64,000 nt of DNA from assembly GCF_032918005.1 (NCBI RefSeq), contig NZ_CP136628.1:5813501-5877500 (forward strand), given 5' to 3'. Positions 15,041 to 30,036 of this stretch are shown here, in pieces (the stretch's first letter is position 1; each line of letters starts with the position of its first letter). Below the pieces are notes generated by a model. It did not search any database. It saw only the letters and a list, made by a program, of their open reading frames with translations, and was not told the DNA's origin. Source of the DNA: Bradyrhizobium sp. NDS-1 (lineage in GTDB: Bacteria; Pseudomonadota; Alphaproteobacteria; Rhizobiales; Xanthobacteraceae). Both the position numbers and the translations under genes were made by a program.

Positions 15041-17743
15041 CTACCCCACCGCGCTTGCGATCTTCGCTTGCTTCATCGGCACGTCCGTCGTCGCGATCAG
15101 CCGCTTCAACTCGGGGATGCAGGAGCCGCAATTGGTGCCGGCCTTGAGCTTGGCCCCGATTTCGGCGGCCGTGCGTGCGCCGGTGGCGATGCTGTTGCAG
15201 ATGGTGTCGCGGCCGACGCCGAAGCAGGCGCAGACGATCGGTCCGCCAGAAGCGGCCCCCTCGCCGGACTTGCCCGACAGCAGCATGCGACGCTGATCGT
15301 CGGTGACGTGGTCGGCCACGAACAGGCTCTTCACCACCTCCCAATCGCCCGCATCATGCGCGGGTCCCACGAACAAGCAGGTTTCGATGCGGTCGCCCGC
15401 GAAAGACGCGGCGCGATAGACCCCGCCGCCGAAGTCGCGATAGTCGGCGACGTCCTCGCCGGCGACGCCCTCCAGCCAGGCCGGCCAGCGCGAAAGGTCC
15501 GCATTGTCGGCAAAGAGATAGCCGAAGCCGTCGGCGACAGTGACGCGGGTCCATAACAGGTTCGGTGGCAGATCGAGTTGTTTCCGCGACAAAGCAAAGC
15601 CGCGGAAGACATATTCGTAAGGTGCGATCGCGGCCGGCGTCGCCTTGGACTCGGGCTGGCCCGAGAACGGATCGGTGAACGACTGCACCAGCGACCCGAC
15701 GCGGCCATGCGAGCTATTCATCGCGCTCCAGTGGATCGGGACGAACAGCGTGCCGCGCTGCTGGCGGTCGCTGACCACGGCCTTCAGGATGCACTGGCCG
15801 TAGTCGGTGGTGATGCGGGCATAGCCATCATGGACGATGCCGTACTTGCTGGCGTCGTCGGGGTGGATCTCGACGAAGGGCTCGGGCAGATGCGCGCCCA
15901 GCCGCTGGCTGAGACCCGTACGCGTCATGGTGTGCCACTGGTCGCGGATGCGTCCGGTGTTGAGCCTGAGGGGACGTGAGGCGCCGGTCTCGCTCCGCAG
16001 CGACGGCACCTCCGGCGCAACGAAGCGGCCCTTGCCGTCATTGGTGAAGAAGCCGCCGCTCGCGAAGAAACGATCGCTCGGCGCGCCGCCTTCGCGTACC
16101 GGCCATTGCACCGGCTTCAACGCGTCGAAGGCTTCGTCGGACAGCAAGGTCAGTGCGCTGATGTCGAAATCACGGCTGCCGTCGTTCTCGAAGGCCGAGA
16201 GCGCGGCATGCTCGCGAAAGATGTCGGCGGCGGATTTGTAGTTGAAACTATCGCCGAAGCCAAGACGTTTGGCGGTCTCGCTCAAAATCCACCAATCGGG
16301 ACGTGCCTCGCCCGGCGCCGGCAAGAACGAACGCTGGCGCGAGATGCGGCGCTCGGAGTTGGTGACCGTGCCCGACTTCTCACCCCAGGCCAGCGCGGGC
16401 AGCAGCACATGCGGCCCCGCCTCGACGGTGTCGTTGGAGAGCACGTTCTCGGAGACCACGAACAGTTCGAGCTTCTTCAACGCCTCGCGCACAAAGTCCG
16501 CATCCGGCAGCGACACTGCCGGGTTGGTGCCCATCACCCAGAGCGCCTTAACCTCGCCGCGATTGATGGCCTCGAACAGCTGCACCGCCTTCAGCCCCTC
16601 ATGGGTGGCGATGTGCGGGGCCTTCCAGAACCGCCTGACGCGATCGATGTCAGGCGGCGTGAAGCCCATATGAGCAGCGAGCATATTGGCGAGGCCGCCG
16701 ACCTCGCGGCCGCCCATGGCGTTGGGCTGGCCGGTGAGCGAGAACGGCGAGGCGCCTGGCTTGCCGATACGCCCGGTGGCGAGATGGCAGTTCAGGATCG
16801 CATTGACCTTGTCGGTGCCCTGCGCCGACTGGTTGACGCCCTGTGAATAGAGCGTGACGACCTTCTCGGTGTCGCGGAACATCTTGAAGAAATCGGCGAC
16901 GTCCTGCTCGGAGAGGCCCGTGGCGAGCGCGGTCGCGGTGGCGCTGCCGGCAATGCTCCGGGCGCGCGCCAGCGCCTCGTCGAAGCCTGACGTGTTCTGC
17001 GCGATGTAGTCCCGGTCCAGCGCGCCGTTGTCGGCGAGATGGACCAACAGGCCACAGAACAGCGCGGTGTCGGTGCCGGGCTTGAGCCCCAGGAACAGAT
17101 CGACGTCATCGGCAGTGTCGGTACGACGCGGGTCGATCACGATCATGCGCGCGCCACGCTCCTGCCGGTTCTTCAGCATGCGCTGGAACAGCACCGGATG
17201 ACACCAAGCCGCGTTCGAACCGACGAAGACCAGCAAATCGGCGTGGTCGAGATCCTCGTAGCAGCCGGGCACGGTATCGGCGCCGAAGGCGCGGCGATGG
17301 CCGGCGACCGACGACGACATGCAGAGCCGAGAATTGGTGTCGACATTGGCGGTGCCGAGAAAGCCCTTCATCAGCTTGTTCGCGACGTAGTAGTCCTCGG
17401 TCAGGAGCTGGCCGGAGAGATAGAACGCGACTGCGTCGGCGCCGTCGCGCGCAACGATGTGCTGCATGCGATGGGCGACGTGGTCCAGTGCATCGCTCCA
17501 GGCGACACGCTCCAGCACGCCCTTGCAGCGGATCATCGGATAGAGCAGACGGCCTTCCAGCCCGACGGTCTCGCCGAGCGCGGAGCCCTTGGAGCACAGC
17601 CGGCCGAAATTGGCGGGGTGATCAGGGTCGCCGGCGATCGCAGCCCCGCCCTTGCCGTCCGGTGTTGCCAGCACGCCGCAGCCGACGCCGCAATAGGGAC
17701 AGGCCGTCCTGGTGGCACGAAGCGTGGGATCGATCACCGTCAT
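15041..17743 (-). CDS. nasC: Assimilatory nitrate reductase catalytic subunit
   Basis: A 900-aa cytoplasmic molybdopterin enzyme reducing nitrate to nitrite. The N-terminal [4Fe-4S] motif is CPYCGVGCGV...RLCSKG; the Mo-bis-MGD domains follow, with NSRLCMSSS placing the cysteine usual for Mo coordination and LNTGRIRDQWHTMTRTG in the C-terminal cofactor domain. The last 60 residues form a BFD-like [2Fe-2S] domain (CACFGVG...CGSCIPELKRL), the expected electron entry from the FAD partner. No Tat signal. ATG at 17743 lies 27 bases after flp. In Bradyrhizobium the operon narK-bjgb-flp-nasC is known to support nitrate growth. Confidence 0.95.
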   Translation of the reverse strand: MTVIDPTLRATRTACPYCGVGCGVLATPDGKGGAAIAGDPDHPANFGRLCSKGSALGETVGLEGRLLYPMIRCKGVLERVAWSDALDHVAHRMQHIVARDGADAVAFYLSGQLLTEDYYVANKLMKGFLGTANVDTNSRLCMSSSVAGHRRAFGADTVPGCYEDLDHADLLVFVGSNAAWCHPVLFQRMLKNRQERGARMIVIDPRRTDTADDVDLFLGLKPGTDTALFCGLLVHLADNGALDRDYIAQNTSGFDEALARARSIAGSATATALATGLSEQDVADFFKMFRDTEKVVTLYSQGVNQSAQGTDKVNAILNCHLATGRIGKPGASPFSLTGQPNAMGGREVGGLANMLAAHMGFTPPDIDRVRRFWKAPHIATHEGLKAVQLFEAINRGEVKALWVMGTNPAVSLPDADFVREALKKLELFVVSENVLSNDTVEAGPHVLLPALAWGEKSGTVTNSERRISRQRSFLPAPGEARPDWWILSETAKRLGFGDSFNYKSAADIFREHAALSAFENDGSRDFDISALTLLSDEAFDALKPVQWPVREGGAPSDRFFASGGFFTNDGKGRFVAPEVPSLRSETGASRPLRLNTGRIRDQWHTMTRTGLSQRLGAHLPEPFVEIHPDDASKYGIVHDGYARITTDYGQCILKAVVSDRQQRGTLFVPIHWSAMNSSHGRVGSLVQSFTDPFSGQPESKATPAAIAPYEYVFRGFALSRKQLDLPPNLLWTRVTVADGFGYLFADNADLSRWPAWLEGVAGEDVADYRDFGGGVYRAASFAGDRIETCLFVGPAHDAGDWEVVKSLFVADHVTDDQRRMLLSGKSGEGAASGGPIVCACFGVGRDTICNSIATGARTAAEIGAKLKAGTNCGSCIPELKRLIATTDVPMKQAKIASAVG

Positions 17744-17770
17744 ATCAGGCTGCCTTATCAAGCTGGCGTG

Positions 17771-18988
17771 TCATGCCGCCTTGGAGGGACGCGCGAGCGC
17801 GCGGCCGAACATCATGTCGGTGCGGATCGCCGCCACCTTGTCGCGATTGCGGATCAGCTCGAGATACCAGAGCGCATCGACGGTATCGCCGATCAGCACG
17901 GCGCCGGTGAGCCGTCCGTCCGCGATGACGAGCTTCTTGTAGGTTCCGCGCCTGCGATCGGTCAGCACGAGGCTTTCGCTGCCCTCCCCGCCCATGAAAT
18001 CGCCGGCGGAAAACACGCTGACGCCGGAGACCTTCAGATTGGTCGAAACCACGCTGCCCTGATAGGAAGCAGGACGTCCGGCGAGATGCCGCGCTAGCAC
18101 GCGCGCCTGCTCGTAGGCGGGCTCGACGAGGCCGTAGCAGGTGCCGTGATGCTCGGCGCATTCGCCGAGCGCGAAGATGTCGGGCGAGGACGTCTGCATG
18201 ACGTCGTTGACGACGATGCCGCGATTGACCGCGATCCCCGCCTCTTTCGCCAGCGCCGCGCTCGGTTTGATGCCGGCCGCGAAGATCACGGCATCGGCCT
18301 CGATGCGGCTGCCGTCGGCAAGCTCGACGGCTTCGACATGATCATCGCCATGGATGCGTGCGGTCGAGGCGTTGAGCAGGATGCGGATGCCCTTGCGCTC
18401 GACCAGCGTCTTGAGCAGGTCGGCGGCCGGCCCGTCGAGCTGACGCTCCATCAGCCGGTCCATGAGGTGCAGCAGCGTCACCGGCGCGCCGGCCTTGGCG
18501 AGGCCGTAAGCTGCTTCAAGTCCGAGCAGGCCGCCGCCGACGACAACGACGCGCTTCTTGGCCGCGGCAAGCGTCAGCAACAGGTCGACGTCGCGGGTGT
18601 CGCGAAAGGTGTGCACGCCGGCGAGATCGGCGCCCGGCACCTTGAGCCGCAGCGGCGTCGATCCCGTGGCAAGCACGAGCTTGGAATATTCCATGCTCTC
18701 TTCGCCTTCGATCTTCAGCTCGCGGCGGCCGACATCGATCTCGGTGACGCGATAGCCGTAACGCACGGTGACGCCGCGATTCCGCCACCAATCCGCCGGC
18801 CGGAGTTCGATCTCGTGCGAGCCGGTCTCGCCGGCCAGCACGGATGAGAGCAGCACGCGATTGTAAGCGAGCCGCGGCTCCTCGCCGATAACGGCGACCG
18901 CGTAGCGGCCGAGGGCGGTCTTGGCGAGCTCGTCGACCAGACGCGCGGCCGCCATACCGTTACCGACGATGACCAGCGGTTCACTCAC
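17771..18988 (-). CDS. flp: FAD-dependent NAD(P)H oxidoreductase, electron donor for nitrate reductase and haemoglobin
   Basis: A 405-aa flavoprotein of the NirB-N-terminal/rubredoxin-reductase type. FAD motifs: VGNGMAAARLVDEL at the N-terminus and DIFALGECAEH late; the NAD(P)H motif is VVVGGGLLGLEAAYGLAKAG. It lacks the Fe-S and sirohaem domains of NirB, so it should carry electrons only. Its place between the haemoglobin gene and nasC matches the described Flp of Bradyrhizobium, proposed to reduce both NasC and Bjgb. It follows bjgb by 10 bases and is probably cotranscribed. Confidence 0.92.
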   Translation of the reverse strand: MSEPLVIVGNGMAAARLVDELAKTALGRYAVAVIGEEPRLAYNRVLLSSVLAGETGSHEIELRPADWWRNRGVTVRYGYRVTEIDVGRRELKIEGEESMEYSKLVLATGSTPLRLKVPGADLAGVHTFRDTRDVDLLLTLAAAKKRVVVVGGGLLGLEAAYGLAKAGAPVTLLHLMDRLMERQLDGPAADLLKTLVERKGIRILLNASTARIHGDDHVEAVELADGSRIEADAVIFAAGIKPSAALAKEAGIAVNRGIVVNDVMQTSSPDIFALGECAEHHGTCYGLVEPAYEQARVLARHLAGRPASYQGSVVSTNLKVSGVSVFSAGDFMGGEGSESLVLTDRRRGTYKKLVIADGRLTGAVLIGDTVDALWYLELIRNRDKVAAIRTDMMFGRALARPSKAA

Positions 18989-18998
18989 GAGGCATCTC

Positions 18999-19427
18999 CT
19001 ATTCAGCGGCCTGCGGCTGCGCGCCGTAGGCTTCGGACATCATGTAGCCGGACAGCACGCCGTAGACATCGGTCCACGCTTTTGCGAGTTCGGGCGTCCA
19101 GTCTTCACCGAGCCCCTTCTCCAGGGTCCACAGCAGGGCCGCGCCGACCACGGGGTAGTGCTCGGCCTTGGCGCCATAGGCGACATGGCGCTTGGCGAGC
19201 ACCGAGGCTGAGGGAAGGATCGAGTTCAGGTTCGACAGGCCACCGACAACGGCAGCGAGCATGCCCATCAGCTTCTTGCGCTGCTCGGTCATGTCCTCGG
19301 GAAACATCGTGCGCACGGACGGCGCCATCTCGAAAAGACGATCGTAGAACAGCACCGCAGCCTGCGCTGAAATCGGTGCGACCTTGGCGAAGCTCTGCTG
19401 GACGAGGGCGATCTGTTCTGGCGTCAT
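18999..19427 (-). CDS. bjgb: Single-domain haemoglobin (nitric oxide detoxification)
   Basis: A 142-aa globin without a reductase domain. The proximal haem ligand is the histidine of AKRHVAYGA; FYDRLFEMAPSVRTMFP is the typical B-C corner, with Tyr and Phe as in flavohaemoglobins. In Bradyrhizobium this protein (Bjgb) removes NO made as a by-product of nitrite chemistry, with Flp as its reductase. It lies between narK and flp, separated from narK by 122 bases holding a palindrome. Confidence 0.93.
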   Translation of the reverse strand: MTPEQIALVQQSFAKVAPISAQAAVLFYDRLFEMAPSVRTMFPEDMTEQRKKLMGMLAAVVGGLSNLNSILPSASVLAKRHVAYGAKAEHYPVVGAALLWTLEKGLGEDWTPELAKAWTDVYGVLSGYMMSEAYGAQPQAAE

Positions 19428-19507
19428 GCTGTTCTCCTGTCTGTTTCGGTCTGCCTTCGCCCGCGCCGTTGCGGAAGAAGTTCATGGGTCAAACGTCATC
19501 AGAGGGA

Positions 19508-19531
19508 CTTCTCCCCGCGTACGGGGAGAAG
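19508..19531. repeat. 24-bp palindrome between narK and bjgb
   Basis: CTTCTCCCCG-CGTA-CGGGGAGAAG, ten-base perfect arms. This core is a common rhizobial intergenic palindrome. Here it sits inside the operon, so its RNA hairpin could alter the ratio of narK to downstream message or protect an mRNA end. Confidence 0.75.
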
Positions 19532-19549
19532 CGAGATTCGTACCAAGTA

Positions 19550-20929
19550 TTAGACCCTTGCTTCGGCAAGGCTTGCCGCCCCTTCACCCTGCGGGCTGCG
19601 ACGCAGGTAGAACCACCAGGTCAGAGCGAGACAGGAGGCGTAGAAGGCGAGATAGATCGCGAGCGCGAGCTGCGGCCCGCCGGTGATGGCGATCGACTTG
19701 CCGAAGCCGGTCGGGATCAGATAGCCGCCGACGGCCCCGATGGCGCCGATGAAGCCGACCGCTGCACCGCTCTCGATGCTCGCCGTCTTGAGCGCCAGCG
19801 CGCGCGCCGTGTCGCCCTTGCCGCGCACCTTGAACAGATTCTCCTCACGGAAGATCGAGGGGATCATGCGATAGGTCGAGCCGTTGCCGATACCGGTCGT
19901 CACGAACAGGATCAGGAACATCGACAGGAAGCCGATGAAATCCTTCTGCCCGACGAAGTAGAGCACGCCGACCGTCGCGCCCGCCATCACGATGAAATTC
20001 CAGAACGTGATGATCGAGCCGCCGATCTTGTCCGCAAGCCAGCCGCCGAGCGGACGCGACAGCGAGCCAACCAGCGGGCCCAGGAATGCGATGGCAATCG
20101 TGACCTGCGGGAACTGGGTCTTGATCAGCAGCGGAAATGCAGCGGAATAGCCGATGAAGGATCCGAACGTGCCGATATAGAGGTATGCCATGATCCAGGT
20201 GTGCTTGCGCTTCACGATCGCTAGCTGGTTCTTCACCGACGATTTCGCCGTGGTGAGATTGTTCATGAAGAACACGGCGCCGAACACCGCGATCGCGATC
20301 GGCAGCACCCACATCAGCCCGGCGTTCTGGAGGAAGATGCCGTCGACCGGCGTTGCCTGGAACAGGTTGAAGACGGCGAGCGTCATCAGGATCGGGGTCA
20401 GGAGCTGTACGCTGGAGACGCCGATATTGCCGCCGGCGGCGTTGAGGCCCAGCGCCCACCCCTTCATCCGGTCGGGGAAGAAGAACGAGATGTTGGTCAT
20501 GCTGGAGGCGAAATTGCCGCCGCCCAGACCCGCGGTCGAGGCGACCAGCAGCATCAGCCAGAACGGCGTATCGGGCTGGCTCACGAAATAGGCAAGCGAC
20601 AGCGTCGGAATGAACAGGATCGCCGCACTGAAGATGGTCCAGTTGCGACCGCCGAAGGTCGTCACAGCGAAAGTGTAGGGAAAGCGCATCAAGGCGCCGA
20701 TTAGGCCTGGCACCGCCACGAGCTGGAACAGCTGGTCGGTGGTGTAGTGGAAGCCTGCCTGCGGCAGCTTGGTGGTGACGATGCTCCAGATCAGCCAGAC
20801 CGAAAAGCCGATATGCTCGGCGACGATCGACCAGATCAGATTGCGTCGCGCGATAGACTTGCCAGTCGCATTCCAGAATGCCTCATCTTCGGGGCGCCAG
20901 TCTGAAATCCAAGTTGGATTCTTCGTCAT
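19550..20929 (-). CDS. narK: NarK-type nitrate/nitrite transporter
   Basis: A 459-aa MFS protein with about 12 predicted membrane helices. Both nitrate-signature regions are present: GGGNFASSMTNISFFFP and GIGNGSTYRMIPSIF. The SRPLGGWLADKIGG loop is the MFS motif A. It could import nitrate or exchange nitrite. Its ATG at 20929 follows AAGGGA. A 135-base leader precedes it, with a hexaloop hairpin at the predicted +1 and a sigma-54-like element. It heads the nitrate assimilation operon. Confidence 0.95.
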   Translation of the reverse strand: MTKNPTWISDWRPEDEAFWNATGKSIARRNLIWSIVAEHIGFSVWLIWSIVTTKLPQAGFHYTTDQLFQLVAVPGLIGALMRFPYTFAVTTFGGRNWTIFSAAILFIPTLSLAYFVSQPDTPFWLMLLVASTAGLGGGNFASSMTNISFFFPDRMKGWALGLNAAGGNIGVSSVQLLTPILMTLAVFNLFQATPVDGIFLQNAGLMWVLPIAIAVFGAVFFMNNLTTAKSSVKNQLAIVKRKHTWIMAYLYIGTFGSFIGYSAAFPLLIKTQFPQVTIAIAFLGPLVGSLSRPLGGWLADKIGGSIITFWNFIVMAGATVGVLYFVGQKDFIGFLSMFLILFVTTGIGNGSTYRMIPSIFREENLFKVRGKGDTARALALKTASIESGAAVGFIGAIGAVGGYLIPTGFGKSIAITGGPQLALAIYLAFYASCLALTWWFYLRRSPQGEGAASLAEARV

Positions 20930-20953
20930 TGAGTATCCCTTCCAGGCTCACCG

Positions 20954-21062
20954 CTGCGTCGTTGCAGGCTCTGCCTCACATGGAGGCGCGCTCCGAGGCT
21001 TCACCCCGGTGGCGAGTTCACGATGCTGATTGATGGTGTTGAGGGACGTCGTCGTTGGCGTC
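20954..21062 (-). promoter_or_regulatory. narK leader with two ANNGNN hexaloop hairpins (ANTAR/NasT-type target)
   Basis: On the minus strand, hairpin P1 (21062-21045) is GACGCC-AACGAC-GACGTC, a 6-bp stem with one C-A mismatch. Hairpin P2 (20967-20954) is CTGC-AACGAC-GCAG. Both loops are six bases with A at 1 and G at 4, the features ANTAR antiterminators recognise. P1 starts within two bases of the predicted +1. The 77-base gap between hairpins is longer than usual, P2 is short, and no T-run terminator was seen. Confidence 0.5.
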
Positions 21063-21074
21063 GCGCAAAGACGT

Positions 21075-21091
21075 TTCAATTTCCGTGCCAA
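21075..21091 (-). promoter_or_regulatory. Sigma-54-like -24/-12 element of narK
   Basis: Minus strand TTGGCACG-GAAA-TTGAA. The -24 half is a perfect TGGCACG; the -12 half has TTGAA instead of TTGCA, losing the usual GC. The nrtA promoter has the same variant. Predicted +1 is about 21064, just before the P1 hairpin. The first T of TGGCACG is 111 bases from the centre of the upstream palindrome. Confidence 0.5.
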
Positions 21092-21171
21092 TTGCGCGCA
21101 TGCTGGAAATCCAGGGATTTCAGCACGTTATTCGTATTGCCAGAATTCGTTGCGAAGCGTTTCCGCTCGCT

Positions 21172-21218
21172 AAATTTGCGATTCGCTCAATCCTTGTGCG
21201 CCGCACAAGGATTGAGCG
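21172..21218. promoter_or_regulatory. Upstream activator-like palindrome of narK
   Basis: A perfect 35-base palindrome (21184-21218): arms CGCTCAATCCTTGTGCG around a single central base. Its core TTGTGCG-N-CGCACAA and the flanking AAATTTGCGATT recur upstream of nrtA (24633-24669) with 35 of 37 bases identical. The position suits an enhancer-binding protein acting with sigma-54. The regulator is unknown; the orientation GTGC..GCAC is opposite to the classical NtrC palindrome. Confidence 0.65.
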
Positions 21219-21264
21219 GGATGTCGATTATTTGGGCGCAAGCATTCTCGCGTTAGCCGTTCGC

Positions 21265-22059
21265 TTACGCGGCCTCGACGAAGCGATGACGCTCGTAGAG
21301 GAATTCGAGCACACGCTGCCGGCACTTCAGATAAGTGGCGTTGGTCGCGAGCTCGAGCCGCCGTCGCGGCCGCGCCAGCGGCACCTCCAGCACCTCGCCG
21401 ATCCGCGCGCTCGGCCCATTGGTCATCATCACGATGCGGTCGGACAACAGCACGGCCTCGTCGACGTCATGGGTGATCATCAAAATGGTGTTGCCGAGCT
21501 TCTGATGCAGCGCCATCACGGAGTCCTGCAGGTGAGCGCGCGTCAGCGCGTCGAGCGCGCCGAAGGGCTCGTCCAGCAGCAGCACCTTCGGCTCCATGGC
21601 CAGCGCCCGCGCAATGCCGACACGCTGCTTCATGCCGCCGGAAATCTCCGAGGGCCGCTTGTCCCGGGCATGGGCCATCTGCACGAGATTGAGATTGTGC
21701 ATCACCCAGGCGTCGCGCTCGGAACGGGACTTGGTCTTGGCGAAGACCTTGTCGACGCCGAGCCTGACGTTCTCGTAGACGGTGAGCCACGGCAGCAGGC
21801 TGTGGTTCTGGAACACCACGGCGCGGTCGGGTCCCGGCGAATTCACCTCGCGGTTCTCCAGCAGTACGCCGCCGGTGGTGGCATTTGTCAGGCCCGCGAT
21901 GATGTTGAGCAGGGTCGACTTGCCGCAACCGGAATGGCCGATGATCGAGACGTACTCGCCCTTCTCGATCGTCAGGTTGATCTCCTTGAGCACCTCGGTG
22001 CTGGCGGCGCCGCGGGTGAAGACCTTGTCGATGTGGTCGAGCTTCAGATAGGCGGTCAT
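21265..22059 (-). CDS. nrtC: Nitrate ABC transporter ATP-binding protein
   Basis: A 264-aa ABC ATPase of the NrtC/SsuB family. Walker A is GHSGCGKST, the signature is SGGMKQRVGIARA, Walker B is VLLLDEPFGALDA, and the switch histidine is in ITHDVDEA. It lacks the C-terminal NrtA-like regulatory domain found in cyanobacterial NrtC. ATG at 22059 follows GAGGAGAG; the longer open frame upstream overlaps nrtB in another frame and is a shadow. It is the last gene of nrtABC. Confidence 0.93.
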   Translation of the reverse strand: MTAYLKLDHIDKVFTRGAASTEVLKEINLTIEKGEYVSIIGHSGCGKSTLLNIIAGLTNATTGGVLLENREVNSPGPDRAVVFQNHSLLPWLTVYENVRLGVDKVFAKTKSRSERDAWVMHNLNLVQMAHARDKRPSEISGGMKQRVGIARALAMEPKVLLLDEPFGALDALTRAHLQDSVMALHQKLGNTILMITHDVDEAVLLSDRIVMMTNGPSARIGEVLEVPLARPRRRLELATNATYLKCRQRVLEFLYERHRFVEAA

Positions 22060-22070
22060 GTGCTCTCTCC

Positions 22071-22967
22071 TCAGTTCTGCGCGGTGCCGCGGGTGACGAC
22101 CTTGCCGAGGCCCGCGATCAGGCGGTCCAGCACGAAGCCGATGATGCCGACATAGAACAGCGCCAGGATGATCTCGCTGATATGCGACGAGTTCCAGGCG
22201 TCCCAGATGAAGAAGCCGATACCGACGCCTCCGATCAGCATTTCCGCGGCGACGATCGCGAGCCAGGACAGGCCGATGCCGATGCGAAGGCCCGTGAAGA
22301 TGTAGGGCGCGGCCGCCGGGATCATGATCTTGGAGAAGAACTCGAGCGGATTGAGCTGCACGACGGCAGCGACGTTGCGGTAGTCCTGCGGGATGTTGCG
22401 GATGCCGACAGCGGTGTTGATGATGATCGGCCAGATCGAGGTGATGAAGATGACAAAGATCGCCGAGGGCTGGCCGTCGCGGAAGGCCGCGAGCGAGAGC
22501 GGCAGCCATGCCAACGGCGGAATGGTGCGCAGCACCTGGAACAGCGGATCGAGCCCGCGCATCGCCCAGACCGATTGCCCCACGAGAACGCCGAGCGCGA
22601 TGCCGGCGATCGCCGAGAGCGAATAGCCAAAGGCGACGCGCTGGAGACTGGCGGACAGATGCCAGAACAGACCCTTGTCGATGCCGCCATGGTCGAAGAA
22701 CGGATCGAGGATCAGCTCCTTGGTGTCAGTGAACACCTTCGACGGCGGCGGCAGAGCCGAGCCGGCTCGGCGGCAGACCAGCTCCCATATAAGCGTAAGC
22801 AGCGCGATCACGACCAGGGGCGGGATCACGCGCACGGCCGTCTCCCGCGCCATGCGCGCGTAAGCTTCCGTGCGCGGGGGGCGCTTCGGCGTCAGCGCGA
22901 CGACCGGCGCGGCGCTGGCCGCAGGCGTCGCAGTTTCAATCTCAATCTTGGCGGCAGTCATGTTCAT
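22071..22967 (-). CDS. nrtB: Nitrate ABC transporter permease
   Basis: A 298-aa inner-membrane permease with about six helices; the coupling-loop region includes AAEMLIGGVGIGFFIWDAWN. The N-terminal 40 residues are Ala/Pro-rich and cytoplasmic. Two ATGs (22967 and 22961) are possible. It lies 60 bases after nrtA and 11 bases before nrtC, so the three genes form one operon. Confidence 0.92.
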   Translation of the reverse strand: MNMTAAKIEIETATPAASAAPVVALTPKRPPRTEAYARMARETAVRVIPPLVVIALLTLIWELVCRRAGSALPPPSKVFTDTKELILDPFFDHGGIDKGLFWHLSASLQRVAFGYSLSAIAGIALGVLVGQSVWAMRGLDPLFQVLRTIPPLAWLPLSLAAFRDGQPSAIFVIFITSIWPIIINTAVGIRNIPQDYRNVAAVVQLNPLEFFSKIMIPAAAPYIFTGLRIGIGLSWLAIVAAEMLIGGVGIGFFIWDAWNSSHISEIILALFYVGIIGFVLDRLIAGLGKVVTRGTAQN

Positions 22968-23027
22968 CGCAATATTTCTCCGGCTGCAAAGGACGACGCG
23001 GCCGCCCGAAGGCGGCCGCTGGCTACA

Positions 23028-24350
23028 TCAGACTTCGACGCGCTTGATCGCGAGCGACTTCAAATAGGCAGCCGGGTTTTCCGGATCGAACACCTTGCCG
23101 TCGAAGAAAGTCTCCTTGCCGCGCGAGGTGGATGTCGGGATCTCAGCGGCCGCGACGCCCAGCGTCTTGGCCGCATCGCGCCACATGTCCTCGCGATTGA
23201 CCTTGGCGATCAGCGCCTTGGTATCGAAACCGGCTTCGTACTTGCCCCAGCGGATGTCCTCGGTGAGGAACCAGAGATCGTGGCTCTGGAAGGGGTAAGA
23301 GGCGAAATCCCGCCAGTACTTCATGATGTGCGGCGAGTTCTCGACCACCTTGCCGGGAATGCCGTAGTCGAACTTTCCGGCAGTGCGGTCGAGCACGTCT
23401 TCGACCGGGCAGTTCATCCACTGCCGCTTGCCCATGATCGCGGCGAGCTCGGCCTTGTTCTCGGCCTTGTCGGCCCATTGCTGGGCTTCCATCACTGCCA
23501 TCAGCAGCGCCTTGGCCGCCTTGGGATATTTGTCGACGAAGGCGGCGCGCATGCCGAAGGATTTCTCGGGATGCTTGTTCCAGAGCTCGCCGGTATTGAT
23601 TGCGGTGTAGCCGATCTTCTGATGGATCAGCTGCAGATTCCAGGGCTCGCCGACGCAGAAGCAGTCCATGGTGCCGACCTTCATGTTGGCCACCATTTGC
23701 GGCGGCGGCACCACGATGGTCTCGATGTCCTTGTCGGGATCGATGCCGCCGGCGGCGAGCCAGTAGCGGATCCAGAGGTCGTGCGTGCCGCCGGGGAAAG
23801 TCATCGCGGCCTTCACGGCCTTGCCCGACGCCTTCTTCTTCTCCAGCGCCGCCTTGAAGGGCGCTGCATCGACGCCGAGCTTGAGGTCGGCATATTCGTT
23901 GGCAACGGAGATGCACTGGCTGTCGAGATTGAGCCGCGCCAGGATGTACATCGGGGTCGGCTGGTTGTTCTGCGTCACCTTGCCCGCCGAGATCAGGTAC
24001 GGCATGGGCGTGAGGATATGGGCGCCGTCGATGCCGTTGCCTTCGGAGCCGAGCACGAGATTGTCGCGCGTCGTGCCCCATGAGGCCTGCTTCTGCACGT
24101 CGGTGTCGGGCATGCCGTATTTGGCAAACAGGCCCTTGTCCTTGGCGACGAAGAGCGGGCCAGCATCGCTCAGCGCGATGAAGCCGAGCTTGGCGCCCTT
24201 GACTTCGGGACCTGCATCCTGGGCGAAGGCGCCGGCGGGGAAATTCAGTTTTGCGGCGGCGAGAAGTGCGGCGGTGGAGCCGGTGGCTTTCAACAATTGA
24301 CGGCGGCTCAGGCCAGTCGATTCCGAGGGCCGGCGGGTGCGCTTGGTCAT
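23028..24350 (-). CDS. nrtA: Nitrate ABC transporter substrate-binding protein
   Basis: A 440-aa NrtA/CmpA-family binding protein. The N-terminus carries a Tat signal (SRRQLLK followed by a hydrophobic stretch and GAFAQDA), so it is exported folded. Nitrate-binding-type blocks include ALSDAGPLFVAKDKGLF and NMKVGTMDCFCVGEPWN. ATG at 24350 follows AAGGAC; ATG at 24371 is an alternative. A leader of about 175 bases with hexaloop hairpins precedes it, behind a sigma-54-like element. First gene of nrtABC. Confidence 0.93.
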   Translation of the reverse strand: MTKRTRRPSESTGLSRRQLLKATGSTAALLAAAKLNFPAGAFAQDAGPEVKGAKLGFIALSDAGPLFVAKDKGLFAKYGMPDTDVQKQASWGTTRDNLVLGSEGNGIDGAHILTPMPYLISAGKVTQNNQPTPMYILARLNLDSQCISVANEYADLKLGVDAAPFKAALEKKKASGKAVKAAMTFPGGTHDLWIRYWLAAGGIDPDKDIETIVVPPPQMVANMKVGTMDCFCVGEPWNLQLIHQKIGYTAINTGELWNKHPEKSFGMRAAFVDKYPKAAKALLMAVMEAQQWADKAENKAELAAIMGKRQWMNCPVEDVLDRTAGKFDYGIPGKVVENSPHIMKYWRDFASYPFQSHDLWFLTEDIRWGKYEAGFDTKALIAKVNREDMWRDAAKTLGVAAAEIPTSTSRGKETFFDGKVFDPENPAAYLKSLAIKRVEV

Positions 24351-24423
24351 AGGCAGTGTCGTCCTTTGCATCGTTGCAGAATTGATTGGCGTCTGTGCAC
24401 ACGAGCAGCCCGTCCGTCCGGCG

Positions 24424-24524
24424 GCGCCATCTTTGGCGCATGCGAACGCACGACGGGGGAGACCCCCGTCTGGTGGCGTCAGCAAATCGGATGAGAAGTC
24501 TCGCGGGACGGCTTCAATGGCGTC
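24424..24524 (-). promoter_or_regulatory. nrtA leader with two ANNGNN hexaloop hairpins (ANTAR/NasT-type target)
   Basis: On the minus strand, P1 (24524-24507) is GACGCC-ATTGAA-GCCGTC with one C-C mismatch at the same stem position as the mismatch in narK P1. P2 (24439-24424) is GCGCC-AAAGAT-GGCGC, a perfect stem. Both loops have A1 and G4. Between them lies GACGGGGG-TCT-CCCCCGTC (24470-24452), a strong GC hairpin without a T-run. P1 starts at the predicted +1. Confidence 0.55.
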
Positions 24525-24535
24525 GACTGGAACTA

Positions 24536-24552
24536 TTCAAGCTTCATGCCAA
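24536..24552 (-). promoter_or_regulatory. Sigma-54-like -24/-12 element of nrtA
   Basis: Minus strand TTGGCATG-AAGC-TTGAA. The spacing is that of sigma-54 promoters; the -12 half is TTGAA as in narK. Predicted +1 is about 24525. The first T of TGGCATG is 111 bases from the centre of the palindrome at 24662. Confidence 0.5.
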
Positions 24553-24632
24553 GCCCGACACCGTGAAAAGGACAAAATTTTCAATGCGTTAAAGAGTTCA
24601 CGCCAGAATGTCGCAGGCCTGCGCCGCATGCG

Positions 24633-24669
24633 AAATTTGCGATTTGCTCAATCCTTGTGCGACGCACAA
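24633..24669. promoter_or_regulatory. Shared activator-like palindrome between nrtA and the nitrite-channel gene
   Basis: AAATTTGCGATT-TGCTCAATCC followed by TTGTGCG-A-CGCACAA, nearly identical to the narK element. The core palindrome is centred at 24662, about midway between two divergent sigma-54-like promoters (111 bases to nrtA, 110 bases to the channel gene). One bound activator could therefore serve both operons. Confidence 0.65.
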
Positions 24670-24771
24670 ATGTTATGCAATAGCTCACGCAAGAGGCCGA
24701 GCGCGTACCAGGATCAGTTCAAGAGATCGCGCATCAGATTGATATCACTGCGTCTTTCCTGCGCCCTCGGC

Positions 24772-24787
24772 CGGCACGCAACTTGCA
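24772..24787 (+). promoter_or_regulatory. Sigma-54 promoter of the FNT-kinase operon
   Basis: CGGCACG-CAAC-TTGCA has the GG and GC dinucleotides at exact sigma-54 spacing, the best match of the three in this island. Predicted +1 is about 24798, where the first leader hairpin begins. Confidence 0.65.
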
Positions 24788-24795
24788 TTTCCTTT

Positions 24796-24880
24796 GGCGT
24801 CAACGAAGACTGCGGCTTGCCGCATTGTTGCAGCCTCTGGCGGCTGCATCCCGGAAGCTCAACTGCTTCGCGGCCTTTTT
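24796..24880 (+). promoter_or_regulatory. Leader of FNT gene: hexaloop hairpins plus intrinsic terminator
   Basis: P1 (24797-24813) is GCGTC-AACGAA-GAC-t-GC with one bulged T. P2 (24819-24834) is GCCGC-ATTGTT-GCAGC with one C-A mismatch. Both loops read ANNGNN. P2 shares its 3' arm with an alternative hairpin, GCAGCC-TCTGGC-GGCTGC (24830-24847), so the two cannot coexist. A terminator follows at 24851-24880. This is the layout expected for ANTAR-controlled antitermination. Confidence 0.55.
24851..24880 (+). terminator. Intrinsic terminator inside the FNT leader
   Basis: CCG-GAAGC-TCAACT-GCTTC-g-CGG, an eight-pair stem with one bulge, followed by CC and five T. It lies about 50 bases after the predicted start of transcription and 140 bases before the coding sequence, a place suited to attenuation. 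Confidence 0.6.
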
Positions 24881-25020
24881 GGTCCTCGTGACGCGATTCC
24901 CAAGGCTTCCAAACTCTCAATAGCTCTCGTGCGCGGCCGGCCAGCCCGCACGGCCCAAGACGTTCAGCCGCGCTCCTGAGGGGCGTGTCGATCTCACTTA
25001 CGAAGCAAAAGGAACCATTG

Positions 25021-25860
25021 ATGTCGTATCTCGCGCCTTCGGAATTCGTCACCAAGATGGTGGATGCAGGCGAGTCCAAGATCTTCATGTCCACCCGGGA
25101 TACCATCATCCGCGCCTACATGGCCGGTGCCATCCTGGCGCTGGCGGCCTGGTTCGCCGTCACCATCACCGTGAACACGGGCCAGCCGCTGGTCGGCGCG
25201 CTGCTGTTTCCGGTCGGCTTCGTCATGCTCTACTTGTTGGGCTTCGACCTCCTGACCGGCGTGTTCGTGCTCTCGCCGCTGGCCCTGATCGACAAGCGCC
25301 CGGGCGTCACCTTCGGCGGCGTGCTGCGCAACTGGGGCCTCGTCTTCGTGGGCAATTTCGCCGGCGCGTTCACCGTGGCCTTCATGATGGCCTTCGTCAC
25401 CACCTTCGGCTTCACCCAGGCGCCCGACAAGGTGGGCGCGGCGATCGGCAACATCGGCGAGGGCCGAACGCTTGGCTACGCCGCCCACGGCGCGGCCGGC
25501 ATGGCGACGCTGTTCCTGCGCGGCATGCTCTGCAACTGGATGGTCTCGACCGGCGTCGTCGGCGCCATGATCTCGACCTCGGTGCCCGGCAAGGTCATTG
25601 CGATGTGGATGCCGATCCTGGTGTTCTTCTACATGGTGTTCGAGCATTCGGTCGTGAACATGTTCCTGTTCCCGTCGGGCATGCTCCTCGGCGCGAAGTT
25701 CTCGATCATGGACTATCTGATCTGGAACGAGATCCCGACCGTGCTCGGCAACCTCGTTGGCGGCCTCGCCTTCACCGGCATGACTCTCTATGCGACGCAC
25801 GTCATGACAAAGCCGAAGCGCCAGATCGACAAGGTCGCGAAGCCCCGCGTTGCGGCCTGA
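25021..25860 (+). CDS. Formate/nitrite transporter family channel (NirC/FocA-like)
   Basis: A 279-aa FNT-family membrane protein with six helices, forming pentameric anion channels for nitrite or formate. Family hallmarks: RNWGLVFVGNFAGA, GMLCNWMVSTG and FEHSVVNMFLFPSG, whose histidine corresponds to the gating His of FocA/NirC. ATG at 25021 is decided by AAAGGAACC just upstream; a GTG at 24985 lacks a site. Its position next to nrtABC and its ANTAR-type leader point to nitrite. It is followed by the phosphatase-kinase gene on the same strand. Confidence 0.9.
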   Translation: MSYLAPSEFVTKMVDAGESKIFMSTRDTIIRAYMAGAILALAAWFAVTITVNTGQPLVGALLFPVGFVMLYLLGFDLLTGVFVLSPLALIDKRPGVTFGGVLRNWGLVFVGNFAGAFTVAFMMAFVTTFGFTQAPDKVGAAIGNIGEGRTLGYAAHGAAGMATLFLRGMLCNWMVSTGVVGAMISTSVPGKVIAMWMPILVFFYMVFEHSVVNMFLFPSGMLLGAKFSIMDYLIWNEIPTVLGNLVGGLAFTGMTLYATHVMTKPKRQIDKVAKPRVAA

Positions 25861-25880
25861 TCGAACACGTCTCGACAGGG

Positions 25881-25907
25881 GAGCCTCGCCCAGCCAGGGT
25901 GAGGCTC
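25881..25907 (+). terminator. Hairpin between FNT and phosphatase-kinase genes
   Basis: GAGCCTCGCC-cagccag-GGTGAGGCTC, ten pairs including one G-T. It is followed by CTCTCTCC rather than a T-run, so partial termination or mRNA processing is more likely than a full stop. It could set a low kinase level relative to the channel. Confidence 0.5.
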
Positions 25908-25920
25908 CTCTCTCCTGGTG

Positions 25921-27657
25921 ATGACGATGCCCCTCGGTCTCCTGATCTCGGTCGGCCAGCACTCCGACAAGGGCCGCAAGCCGGTCAACCAGGACTTTCA
26001 CGGCGTTCTCATTCCCGAGGAGCCGCTGCTCAGCCTGAAGGGCATCGCCGCGGTCCTTGCCGACGGCATCTCCTCCAGCACGGTGAGCCAGATCGCCAGC
26101 GAGTCGGCGGTCAAGAGCTTCCTGATGGACTATTATTGCACGTCGGAATCCTGGACGGTGAAGACGTCCGCCCGCCGCGTGCTGGACGCAACCAATTCCT
26201 GGCTGCACGCGCAGACGCGCAAGAGCCAATACGCCTATGACCGCGACAAGGGTTATGTCTGCACCCTGACCGCCATGGTCATCAAGGCGACCACGGCGCA
26301 CATCTTTCATGTCGGCGACTGCCGCGTTTACCGCGTGGCGGGCAAGGCGCTCGAACAGCTGACCGACGATCACCGGATCATCGTGTCGTCGGAGCAGACC
26401 TATCTCGGCCGCGCACTCGGCATCAATCCGCAGCTCGAGATCGATTATCAGGCGTTCGAGGTCGAGGCCGGCGACGTTTTCCTGCTGGCGACCGACGGCG
26501 CCTACGAATTCGTCGACGCGCGCTTCGTCACGAGCGCGCTGAGCGAGCATGCAGGCGGGCTCGACGGAGCGGCCAAGGCCATCGTCGAGGAAGCCTACCG
26601 GCGCGGCAGCGACGACAACATCACCGTCCAGATCCTGCGCATCGACGCGGTGCCGCAGCGCGAGCCGGCCGGCATCTTCAATCAGACGTCACAATTGCCG
26701 CTGCCTGCGCTGCCGGAGCCGCGCGCGATCTTCGACGGCTACCGCATTGTCCGTGAGATTCACGGCAGCAGTCGCAGCCACATCTATCTCGCGGTCGACG
26801 TAGAGACCGAGGAGCCGGTCGCGCTCAAGCTGCCGTCGGTCGATTTGCGCGACAATGCCGCCTATCTCAAGCGTTTCCTGATGGAGGAATGGATCGCGCG
26901 CCGGATCGACAGCCCGCACGTGCTGAAGCCGCTGTCACAGTCCAGGCGGCGCAGTTACCTCTACGTAGCGACCGAATTCGTCGAGGGGCAAACCTTGAAG
27001 CAATGGATGACCGACAATCCACGCCCGGATCTCGAAACCGTGCGCGGACTGATCGAGCAGATCGCCGCCGGGCTGCGCGCCTTCCATCGTATGGAGATGC
27101 TGCATCAGGACCTCAGGCCCGACAACATCCTGATCGACAAGACGGGCACCGCCAAGATCATCGACTTCGGATCAGTCAAGGTGGCCGGCGTCGCGGAAGC
27201 GGCGCCGCCGGACGAGGCCGACGAAATCCTGGGCACCGTCCAGTATACAGCTCCGGAGTATTTTCTTGGGCAGGGCGGCACGCCGCGCTCCGACATGTTT
27301 TCGCTGGCGGTGATCTGCTACCAGATGCTGACCGGAAAACTGCCTTACGGCACACAGATTGCCAGGATCCGGCGCAAGGCGGACGTACGAAGGCTCAAAT
27401 ACCGCCCGGCCGACGACGATCGCAACGTGCCTGCCTGGGTCGACGGCGCGCTCAAACGCGCGCTGCATCCTGATCCCTACAAGAGGCATGAGGATCTGTC
27501 CGAATTCGTCTTCGAGCTCCGCACGCCCAACCCCGTCTATCTCGACACGCGGATCACGCCGCTGTTGGAGCGCAGTCCGTTGATGTTCTGGAAGCTGACG
27601 ACGGCGGCACTCGCCTGCGCGGTCGTCGTGCTGCTCGCGTTGCTGCACACGCGTTAA
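25921..27657 (+). CDS. Fused PP2C-type phosphatase and Ser/Thr protein kinase with C-terminal membrane anchor
   Basis: A 578-aa bifunctional protein. The PP2C half (about 5-245) keeps its metal ligands: PVNQDFHG, LADGIS, TDGAYE and SDDNIT. After a Pro-rich linker the kinase half (about 275-540) keeps VALKLP (ATP lysine), HQDLRPDN (catalytic loop, residue 394 region), DFGSVKV and YTAPEY. The last 25 residues form one hydrophobic helix ending HTR, so both domains face the cytoplasm. ATG at 25921 is used; a GTG at 25918 and an ATG at 25927 are alternatives. Similar kinases adjoin nitrate genes in Pseudomonas. It may control the FNT channel or NrtABC by phosphorylation; the target is inferred. 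Confidence 0.9.
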   Translation: MTMPLGLLISVGQHSDKGRKPVNQDFHGVLIPEEPLLSLKGIAAVLADGISSSTVSQIASESAVKSFLMDYYCTSESWTVKTSARRVLDATNSWLHAQTRKSQYAYDRDKGYVCTLTAMVIKATTAHIFHVGDCRVYRVAGKALEQLTDDHRIIVSSEQTYLGRALGINPQLEIDYQAFEVEAGDVFLLATDGAYEFVDARFVTSALSEHAGGLDGAAKAIVEEAYRRGSDDNITVQILRIDAVPQREPAGIFNQTSQLPLPALPEPRAIFDGYRIVREIHGSSRSHIYLAVDVETEEPVALKLPSVDLRDNAAYLKRFLMEEWIARRIDSPHVLKPLSQSRRRSYLYVATEFVEGQTLKQWMTDNPRPDLETVRGLIEQIAAGLRAFHRMEMLHQDLRPDNILIDKTGTAKIIDFGSVKVAGVAEAAPPDEADEILGTVQYTAPEYFLGQGGTPRSDMFSLAVICYQMLTGKLPYGTQIARIRRKADVRRLKYRPADDDRNVPAWVDGALKRALHPDPYKRHEDLSEFVFELRTPNPVYLDTRITPLLERSPLMFWKLTTAALACAVVVLLALLHTR

Positions 27658-27783: not shown

Positions 27784-27816
27784 GAGCGTCATGCCGACGA
27801 AATCGAGGTGACCGTC

Positions 27817-30036
27817 ATGACGGTATCTGTGCCGAACGAGTCCGCTGGCGCTGCCGGCAATGCGCTCAATCTGCGCGTTGAAGGCATGGACTGCGGCGCC
27901 TGCGCGATCAAAGTCGAAAACGCGCTCAAACGGCTGCCCGGCGTGAGCCACATCAATATGAACTATTCGACCGAGACGCTCTCGGTGCGCCTCGACGAGG
28001 ATCGAACCTCGCGAGAGATCATCGAGGGCAAAATCCGGGCGCTCGGCTACACACCGAAGCCGCTGAGCGGAGCGTTCCTCGGCACGTCCGACGCCACGGC
28101 CACGCACGAGCAGGCGCCGGGTGCAGAGCCCTGGTGGAAGACGCGCAGGGGCCGAATGGTTCTCGGCCTGGGCGGCCTCCTCGCGTTTGCGTTCGCCATC
28201 TCGACAGCAAGTCCCGAACTCTCGTTTTGGGGCTACGGCGCTGCAGCGCTCATCGGGCTCGTGCCGGTCGCGCGGCGGGCTTTCGTGGGCGCTCTATCCG
28301 GCACGCCGTTTGGCATCGAGACTCTCATGACCGTTGCCGCCGCCGGGGCCATCGCGATCGGTGCCGCCGAAGAGGCGGCGGTCGTCATAGTCCTGTTCGC
28401 GATCGGCGAGCTTCTGGAGACCGTGGCGGCGGGGCACGCCAGGGCGGGAATCAAAGCTCTGGTTGATCTCATGCCGCGAACCGCCCGGATCGAAGAGGGC
28501 GGCCAGGTTCGAGAGGTCCCCGTCGAGCGTTTGCGTGTGGGCGACATCATCGCGGTTCGTGCGGGCGACAGGGTGCCTTCCGATGGCGCCGTGATCGAAG
28601 GCCAATCCGAGGTTGACGAGGCGCCCGTTACTGGCGAGTCAACTCCGGTCGCAAAGGGCGTCGGCGATCAGTTATATGCCGGGAGCATCAATGCGAATGG
28701 AACGCTGCGCGTTCGGCTCACGCGCACTGCCGCTGACAATACGATTGCACGCATCATTCATCTGGTTGAAGAAGCGCAGGGATCGAAGGCGCCCACCGCG
28801 CGTTTCATCGATCAGTTTTCGGCACGATACACGCCGGCTGCCATGGCAGTGGCAGCGCTCATCATGGCCGGACCACCTCTCGTCGCCGGAGCTGATTGGT
28901 ACACCTGGATTTATCGCGGATTGGCGACCCTGCTCATCGCGTGCCCCTGCGCGCTCGTGATCTCGACGCCCGCGGTAATCGCCTCCGGCCTTGCATCGGG
29001 TGCACGGCGCGGGCTTCTCATCAAAAGCGGAGCAGCCCTGGAAATCCTGGGCAAGGTCAGGACCATCGCCTTCGACAAGACAGGCACTCTGACCGTCGGA
29101 AGGCCGCAGGTGACCGACATCACTGCGGTCGAGGGAACCGAGAACGATGTTTTGGCGAGAGCAGCGGCGGTCGAAGGCCACTCGAGCCATCCGCTCGGCC
29201 TCTCGATCGTCGCGGCGGCGAAAGCGCGCGGTCTCGCAATTCCGCAAAGTTTCGGCGGTATTGCTATTCCCGGCAAGGCCGTTACCGCGCGTCTTCGCGA
29301 GAGCTTCGTTTCCGTGGGTTCGCCGCGTTATGCGGCCGAACTCGGGCTATTGCGCGACGATGTCGCATCCGGCATCGAGGCATTCGAGCGTGAGGGGAAA
29401 ACCATCGTTGTTGTACTCGCCGGCAAGCGCGTCATTGGGTTCATCGCTCTGCGAGACGAACCACGCGAAGATGCGGCGGCCGGTATCGCTGGGCTGAAGG
29501 CGCTCGGAATTCGAACCGTCATGCTGACGGGGGACAATCGACGCACTGGCGAGGCCATCGGAAGGGCTCTCGACCTCGAAGTGCAATCCGAGCTTCTCCC
29601 CGACGCCAAGCTCGCGATCATCAATGACTTGAAAACGGCCGGTCCGATCACGATGATTGGCGATGGCATCAACGATGCCCCGGCGCTTGCGGCTGCTGAT
29701 GTCGGCGTGGCCATGGGCAACGGTACAGATGTGGCGCTGGAGACCGCAGATGCAGCGCTCCTCAGGGATCGCGTACTCGGGGTGGCCGAATTGGTCGCGC
29801 TCTCACGAGCGACGCTGTCCGTTATCCGGCAGAACATCATCATCGCGCTCGGGCTCAAGGCCGTCTTTCTAGCGACCACGGTGCTCGGCGTCACTTCGCT
29901 CTGGATGGCGATCTTGGCCGACACGGGCGCCACTGTGCTGGTCACGGCAAATGCCTTGCGCCTCTTGCGCATGGGGATCAGCTTGGAAAGCGGGACGCTT
30001 CCGAAGAAGCGGTCCCCTGAGGCATGTTTGTTATGA
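27817..30036 (+). CDS. Heavy-metal P1B-type ATPase (Zn/Cd/Pb exporter, ZntA-like)
   Basis: A 739-aa metal exporter. The N-terminal metal-binding domain has GMDCGAC (about residue 20); the membrane motif is ACPCALVIST (CPC), typical of Zn/Cd/Pb or Cu pumps; phosphorylation motif DKTGTLT, ATP-site EGHSSHPLG and the hinge GDGINDAPALAAAD follow. The motif set, including MAILADTGATVLVTANALRLL at the end, fits the Zn/Cd class. ATG at 27817 is chosen for its GAGGTGA site; ATG at 27781 would add 12 residues and overlap the proposed -10. It ends 3 bases before the end of the convergent gene. Confidence 0.92.
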   Translation: MTVSVPNESAGAAGNALNLRVEGMDCGACAIKVENALKRLPGVSHINMNYSTETLSVRLDEDRTSREIIEGKIRALGYTPKPLSGAFLGTSDATATHEQAPGAEPWWKTRRGRMVLGLGGLLAFAFAISTASPELSFWGYGAAALIGLVPVARRAFVGALSGTPFGIETLMTVAAAGAIAIGAAEEAAVVIVLFAIGELLETVAAGHARAGIKALVDLMPRTARIEEGGQVREVPVERLRVGDIIAVRAGDRVPSDGAVIEGQSEVDEAPVTGESTPVAKGVGDQLYAGSINANGTLRVRLTRTAADNTIARIIHLVEEAQGSKAPTARFIDQFSARYTPAAMAVAALIMAGPPLVAGADWYTWIYRGLATLLIACPCALVISTPAVIASGLASGARRGLLIKSGAALEILGKVRTIAFDKTGTLTVGRPQVTDITAVEGTENDVLARAAAVEGHSSHPLGLSIVAAAKARGLAIPQSFGGIAIPGKAVTARLRESFVSVGSPRYAAELGLLRDDVASGIEAFEREGKTIVVVLAGKRVIGFIALRDEPREDAAAGIAGLKALGIRTVMLTGDNRRTGEAIGRALDLEVQSELLPDAKLAIINDLKTAGPITMIGDGINDAPALAAADVGVAMGNGTDVALETADAALLRDRVLGVAELVALSRATLSVIRQNIIIALGLKAVFLATTVLGVTSLWMAILADTGATVLVTANALRLLRMGISLESGTLPKKRSPEACLL

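Follow-up and report, generated by a model that had tools for sequence, protein, structure and literature searches.

In a 64-kb stretch of the Bradyrhizobium sp. NDS-1 genome (hereafter the window), three operons are preceded by a common regulatory plan: narK-bjgb-flp-nasC, nrtABC and an operon comprising a formate/nitrite channel (FNT) gene and a PP2C phosphatase-kinase fusion gene. Sequence comparison indicates that this three-layer plan, made up of activator sites, a sigma-54 promoter and a leader hairpin, is conserved across much of Bradyrhizobium. The palindrome at its upstream end, which the initial annotation took for one activator site, is, judging from its flanks, a junction at which two NtrC-like boxes abut, made up of their inner halves, and it contains an exact PhaR site. 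We consider it quite probable that NtrC activates the sigma-54 polymerase from this tandem enhancer and that NasT then governs read-through at the hairpin at +1.

The exact palindrome TTGTGCGNCGCACAA occurs in the window at 21194-21208 (centre 21201) and 24655-24669 (centre 24662), that is, twice and not three times, the second copy being common to nrtA and FNT. A sigma-54-like 16-mer lies 111 (narK), 111 (nrtA) and 110 bases (FNT) from the palindrome centre, which confirms the distances reported initially; to call them three independent agreements was an overstatement, because the nrtA and FNT distances are taken from the same palindrome. The element described as TGGCAYG-N4-TTGxA is found at narK and nrtA, but that of FNT starts with CGG instead of TGG. 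The pattern GGCAYGN4TTGNA matches these three elements and nothing else in the window; shuffled controls gave a mean of 0.19 matches and 0/100 shuffles reached three, a significance that is overstated since the pattern was fitted to those sites. With the usual sigma-54 spacing, +1 falls at 21064 (narK), 24525 (nrtA) and 24798 (FNT). In a GG-N10-GC test the FNT element is complete (TTGCA), and narK and nrtA read TTGAA, which is kept in footprint rows L016-L034; the nrtA-side element of L033 reads TTGAC. The lack of GC in the narK and nrtA -12 halves had been named as a weak point. It is eased because the -12 is also without GC at a PII gene (TTGAT in 24/24 rows) and at nirA (TTGAA or TTGTA; 17 rows). 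When the own genome was scanned with TGGCACGN4TTGCW, 14 sites came up, which served as orientation only.

The conserved block around the palindrome measures 35 bp (17+1+17), and each 17-bp side reads GC-N11-GC. At narK, the inner 33 bp of the box (21185-21217) form a perfect palindrome around 21201 in the own genome. We compared 41 physical boxes (34 distinct), picked by gene and not by motif, with narK and FNT sharing one box in L035-L037 and L041; 82/82 halves retain the GC at the outer end of the GC-N11-GC motif. In L035-L037, a 23-base insertion lies beside the box, and an alternative outer half-site restores GC-N11-GC. The box is consistent with NtrC sites given in the available text of published accounts, namely TGC-N11-GCA in S. 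meliloti, TGCACCAnnnTGGTGCA in E. coli and GC-N11-GC in P. stutzeri; a related NtrC motif is in print for P. denitrificans.

The promoters of the PII gene (24 rows) and nirA (17 rows) carry sigma-54 elements and NtrC-like boxes, but, once aligned, they lack the palindrome, which was for this reason rejected as an NtrC site of general use. The nirA promoter TGGCACGCAACTTGAA (L246:5926-6004, own genome C1:4108925-4109003) has non-abutting NtrC-like boxes, and its leader carries a hexaloop hairpin that starts at about +40, CAGC-AACGAA-GCUG; this is conserved across the 17 rows aligned.

Free variation of spacing and hairpins among close relatives, named at the outset as the outcome that would speak against a shared plan, was not seen, because the box, the -24/-12 and the hairpin position are conserved in the alignments. 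In the alignments of the upstream regions of FNT (24 rows) and narK (21 rows), the box, the -24/-12, the hairpin and parts of the leader stand out as conserved islands, and the spacer between box and -24 is not conserved in sequence. Our comparison set consisted of 80 FNT loci from named genomes. In 22/23 Bradyrhizobium loci (L016-L037, L041), the palindrome, with at most two mismatches, has a sigma-54-like element 109-113 or 136-142 bases away; in L033 the distance is 124. A fixed distance of 110 bases, as first supposed, does not hold: the 62 box-promoter pairs of the genus scan are spaced by 110-114 bases in 51 cases, 125 in five, 136 in four and 141 in two, so a spacing of about 110 is preferred, not fixed.

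Nine more Bradyrhizobium loci (L038-L040, L047, L055, L076, L082, L087 and L093) are without a palindrome so paired. They have a different FNT promoter, of the TGGCAYRTCSATTGCT type, and their FNT hairpin, GUC-AAUGAC-GAC, is found at +3 or +4 in 9/9. In L047 and L055, NtrC-like boxes upstream of FNT abut as TGTGCA-NN-TGCACA.

The leader hairpins had been placed within two bases of +1, which is correct for nrtA (+2) and for FNT, where the stem begins at -1 when two base pairs on the far side of a bulge are included and at +2 when they are not; the narK hairpin begins at +3, so that all lie within three bases. Folded as short pieces, the narK and nrtA leaders adopt the hexaloop hairpin as their minimum-energy structure (z -0.23 and 0.17), the energy alone being unremarkable; in the short FNT piece another fold is preferred over the hexaloop hairpin (z 0.29), and in longer leader pieces the minimum-energy fold is none of the three. 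Their support is comparative. A hexaloop with A1 and G4 at +8/+9 is present in 19/19 nrtA rows and 21/21 narK rows, with L041 counted as narK and the L033 narK row dropped as stray, no narK being found there. The first alignment (A1) holds the 19 nrtA rows and four narK rows (L035-L037, L041), of which L035-L037 are also in the second (A2). At FNT, loop base A1 lies at +5 to +7 in 21/23 rows; the others have it at +9 or follow an earlier register (loop AACGTC). Both loop bases were preset in the hexaloop search, and the alignments display them directly. Stems vary by operon (GACGCC/GACGUC, GACGCC/GCCGUC, GUC/GAC and, at nirA, CAGC/GCUG), while A1 and G4 are constant. These leaders match the definition of ANTAR targets, a hexaloop with A1 and G4, in the available text of PMC8934654. 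The nrtA leader also contains a strong GC hairpin, after which a U-run is absent; it is a possible terminator. A scan of positions 20000-26000 against Rfam gave six matches, all under gathering scores. A scan of the own genome with a pattern for the hairpin stem (P1) was unspecific (241 forward versus 61 backward-control matches with at most one mismatch) and was dropped; the known narK and nrtA copies were missing among the matches listed.

Under nitrogen limitation, phosphorylated NtrC would bind the 35-bp tandem enhancer about 110 bp upstream of -24 and open sigma-54 RNA polymerase at GGCAYG-N4-TTGNA; the divergent nrtA and FNT promoters would both be driven from one enhancer. The 5' end of the transcript would be the hexaloop hairpin (A1, G4), bound by NasT once nitrate releases NasT from NasS, and this binding would decide read-through into narK-bjgb-flp-nasC, nrtABC and FNT-phosphatase/kinase. 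Protein binding and all dynamics in this scheme are what we infer from the anatomy of the promoters, their conservation and the identity of the junction with the PhaR 12-mer. The own genome encodes NtrC (above the curated cut-off, with GAFTGA) and a NasT-like protein with an ANTAR domain match, which adjoins a NasS-like open reading frame ahead of nirA. A second ANTAR-domain protein is encoded by an open frame of 331 amino acids (L198, C1:5210501-5210650). The proposal of one promoter plan with control of both initiation and elongation gains support from conservation in relatives. The phosphatase-kinase would belong to the regulon by position alone, 57 bases after FNT.

Several observations weigh against the control by NtrC and NasT outlined above. 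Within a single promoter, P1 covariation was not found in the aligned rows; the pairs are invariant, and therefore covariation gives no support there. By eye, we recognized no second A1/G4 hexaloop and no U-run terminator in the leaders. Spacing varies between 110 and 142 bases across loci, and the same box was not found outside Bradyrhizobium among the 80 FNT loci. The available text of PMC6759348 reports that deletion of nasT in B. diazoefficiens raises narK expression under denitrifying conditions, contrary to simple antitermination, and claims that narK and bjgb are preceded by RegR and FixK-type boxes; it also cites an opposite nasT effect under nitrate assimilation.

The distribution of the palindrome hints at PhaR. 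In the 7.65-Mb own genome the exact palindrome occurs three times, twice in the window and once at a phasin gene (backward control, 0 exact), and with up to two mismatches there are 27 matches versus 18 in the backward control. In 60 genomes of the genus we counted 105 exact copies in 55 genomes, the backward control giving three copies in three genomes. Among the 78 of these 105 copies that were examined, 30 belong to phasin genes, 46 are nitrate-type and two are neither (L139, L243), with gene labels assigned by a rule of 700 bp and 65% identity; the nitrate-type class comprises 45 copies at nitrate genes and L218, which was assigned by its half-sites and sigma-54 element, without a gene start by the rule. 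Both outer NtrC-like halves flank 46/46 nitrate-type copies versus 0/30 phasin copies (one side in L211), and a sigma-54-like element accompanies 46/46 versus 0/30. The letters of the junction are identical to TGCGACGCACAA and TGCGTCGCACAA, which PhaR covers in DNase I footprints at B. diazoefficiens phaP1, where polyhydroxybutyrate (PHB) abolishes PhaR binding in vitro, according to the available text of PMC6201568. Since the junction is an exact PhaR 12-mer, it can probably bind PhaR too. The compared rows are related by descent, and the counts are therefore not independent trials.

The phasin copy of the own genome (L001:1501-1544, C1:3625349-3625392) lies upstream of the gene, and its promoter has a second PhaR-type site, with two mismatches, at a distance of 29 bases from the exact one. 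The two exact copies at L245/L139 and L243, which are remote from phasin and nitrate genes, may be additional PhaR sites.

What PhaR would do at the nitrate enhancers can be read in two ways. PhaR on the junction may block NtrC until PHB removes it, so that carbon storage would act as a further gate on nitrate assimilation, beside ammonium (through NtrC) and nitrate (through NasT); this would be an addition to the NtrC/NasT core and not an alternative to it, and we put its chances somewhat below even. Alternatively, the PhaR-like junction results from the chance abutment of two strong NtrC half-sites, TTGTGCR, at 18-bp centre spacing, for which we see an even chance. The half-sites of NtrC and PhaR are alike, so the coincidence is not very costly, and PhaR is not needed by the core model. 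Chance abutment does not readily account for the exact palindrome (14/14) in 34/41 boxes, nor for the PhaR operator TGCRNYGCASMA within 41/41 nitrate boxes versus 1/24 PII and 0/17 nirA upstream regions. At half-site position 4, T, required by PhaR and tolerated by NtrC, is found in 82/82 inner versus 23/82 outer halves, and the PhaR gene is present once. The looser core TGCRNYGCA, on the other hand, also occurs in 6/24 PII and 3/17 nirA regions, and upstream of FNT in the palindrome-free Bradyrhizobium loci the 12-mer is absent (0/9), with promoter and hairpin retained. By eye, the inner halves still read GTGCA/TGCA in 7/9 of these loci, so that strong inner halves, kept where the 12-mer is not, may be a preference of NtrC itself. 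A role for PhaR is also countered by the location of the junction about 110 bp upstream of -24, unlike PhaR sites near -35/-10, and by two papers on PhaR in Bradyrhizobium, in whose main text narK is unmentioned. The published phaR transcriptome was obtained in TY medium, as the available text of PMC6201568 states, and NtrC targets should be silent in this medium.

The palindrome could also belong to another activator, such as another enhancer-binding protein, a LysR-type regulator on T-N11-A or RegR, which we regard as unlikely. The 15-mer is compatible with T-N11-A, several further enhancer-binding proteins are encoded in the own genome and a RegR box at narK has been claimed; however, GC-N11-GC stands on both sides with all outer halves kept, and even the best match to the RegR consensus has three mismatches, so that we rejected a RegR box. 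Finally, the narK and nrtA promoters might be duplicated DNA whose spacing is a relic and not a product of selection. In favor of such an inheritance, these two upstream regions have over 30 similar bases in common next to the palindrome, but the alignments largely refute it: the spacer is unconserved while box, -24/-12 and hairpin are conserved, and FNT has the same plan with a different sequence. We regard this explanation as very improbable.

The logic of NtrC, sigma-54 and an ANTAR-type leader is largely known already. Klebsiella oxytoca nasF combines an NtrC/sigma-54 start with NasR antitermination, and thus also couples nitrogen-controlled initiation to nitrate-controlled elongation via an ANTAR protein; it differs in that NasR itself senses nitrate and that a single operon is involved. 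In Sinorhizobium meliloti, mmgR is reportedly controlled negatively by AniA (PhaR) and positively by NtrC, which to judge by the title opposes PhaR and NtrC on one promoter, there belonging to a gene for a small RNA in PHB control; this speaks in favor of a role for PhaR beside NtrC. NtrC and RpoN are also said, in the title of a paper, to act in nitrate/nitrite reductase expression in B. diazoefficiens.

The closest system is B. diazoefficiens, where the same genes, narK-bjgb-flp-nasC and nirA, are under NasST, with NasT-type hairpins predicted in the narK, bjgb and nirA leaders (PMC6759348, PMC4724949), so the narK hairpin was previously in print; the available text of these reports describes no tandem NtrC box, nrtA or FNT hairpin or PhaR site. 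The nosR leader of this species shows NasT antitermination on leader hairpins at other genes, according to the available text of PMC6712156; the comparison covered the leader. In Paracoccus denitrificans, nasTS-nasABGHC is subject to two-level control by an NtrC box and NasT leader hairpins; the NtrC box is reported at nasT, the nasA site was not located and a palindromic junction is unmentioned in the available text of PMC5424462. The PhaR operators of phasin genes contain the identical 12-mer near -35/-10 of ordinary promoters, as far as the available text of PMC6201568 and PMC12542648 goes, whereas here NtrC half-sites flank it and a sigma-54 element follows about 110 bp away. A literature search that reached few subscription papers turned up no report of NtrC and PhaR sharing a site at nitrate enhancers.

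The coordinates are collected in Table 1. A gene for a ZntA-like heavy-metal P-type ATPase (window 27796-30033) follows directly after the phosphatase-kinase gene.

Table 1. Putative regulatory elements and genes of the three operons in the window.
Feature	Position	Strand	Remarks
narK enhancer, 35-bp tandem NtrC-like box	21184..21218	.	GC-N11-GC twice
nrtA/FNT common enhancer, 35-bp tandem NtrC-like box	24645..24679	.	TGCTCAATCCTTGTGCG-A-CGCACAAATGTTATGCA
narK junction palindrome	21194..21208	.	TTGTGCGCCGCACAA, PhaR 12-mer on both strands
nrtA/FNT junction palindrome	24655..24669	.	TTGTGCGACGCACAA, PhaR 12-mer on both strands
narK sigma-54-like element	21090-21075	-	TGGCACGGAAATTGAA; pattern match and upstream-of-narK alignment
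nrtA sigma-54-like element	24551-24536	-	TGGCATGAAGCTTGAA; pattern match and upstream-of-FNT alignment
FNT sigma-54-like element	24772-24787	+	CGGCACGCAACTTGCA; pattern match and upstream-of-FNT alignment
narK leader hairpin	21045..21062	-	GACGCC-AACGAC-GACGUC, hexaloop A1 and G4, from +3
nrtA leader hairpin	24507..24524	-	GACGCC-AUUGAA-GCCGUC, from +2
FNT leader hairpin	24797..24813	+	GCGUC-AACGAA-GAC(U)GC
nrtA leader GC hairpin	24453..24469	-	ACGGGGG-UCU-CCCCCGU, U-run absent after it
narK	19550-20929	-	operon 15041-20929
bjgb, globin	18999-19427	-	operon narK-bjgb-flp-nasC
flp, NirB-like FAD protein	17771-18988	-	operon narK-bjgb-flp-nasC
nasC	15041-17761	-	operon narK-bjgb-flp-nasC
nrtA	23028-24350	-	operon nrtABC 21265-24350
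nrtB	22071-22967	-	above NCBIfam cut-off
nrtC	21265-22059	-	above NCBIfam cut-off
FNT formate/nitrite channel	25021-25860	+	operon 25021-27657
PP2C phosphatase-kinase fusion	25918-27657	+	57 bases after FNT

Taken together, even without a role for PhaR, the enhancer is identified as tandem NtrC-like boxes, both members of a divergent pair of sigma-54 promoters stand equally far from a single enhancer, and the candidate NtrC-NasT targets now include nrtABC as well as the FNT-phosphatase/kinase operon. The PhaR site inside the activator site is a hint that nitrate use may be gated by stored carbon. If this is true, the 35-bp element would let the bacterium weigh its carbon reserves against its nitrogen need before spending electrons on nitrate, which would bear on root-nodule physiology and on the handling of nitrite and nitric oxide in soil.

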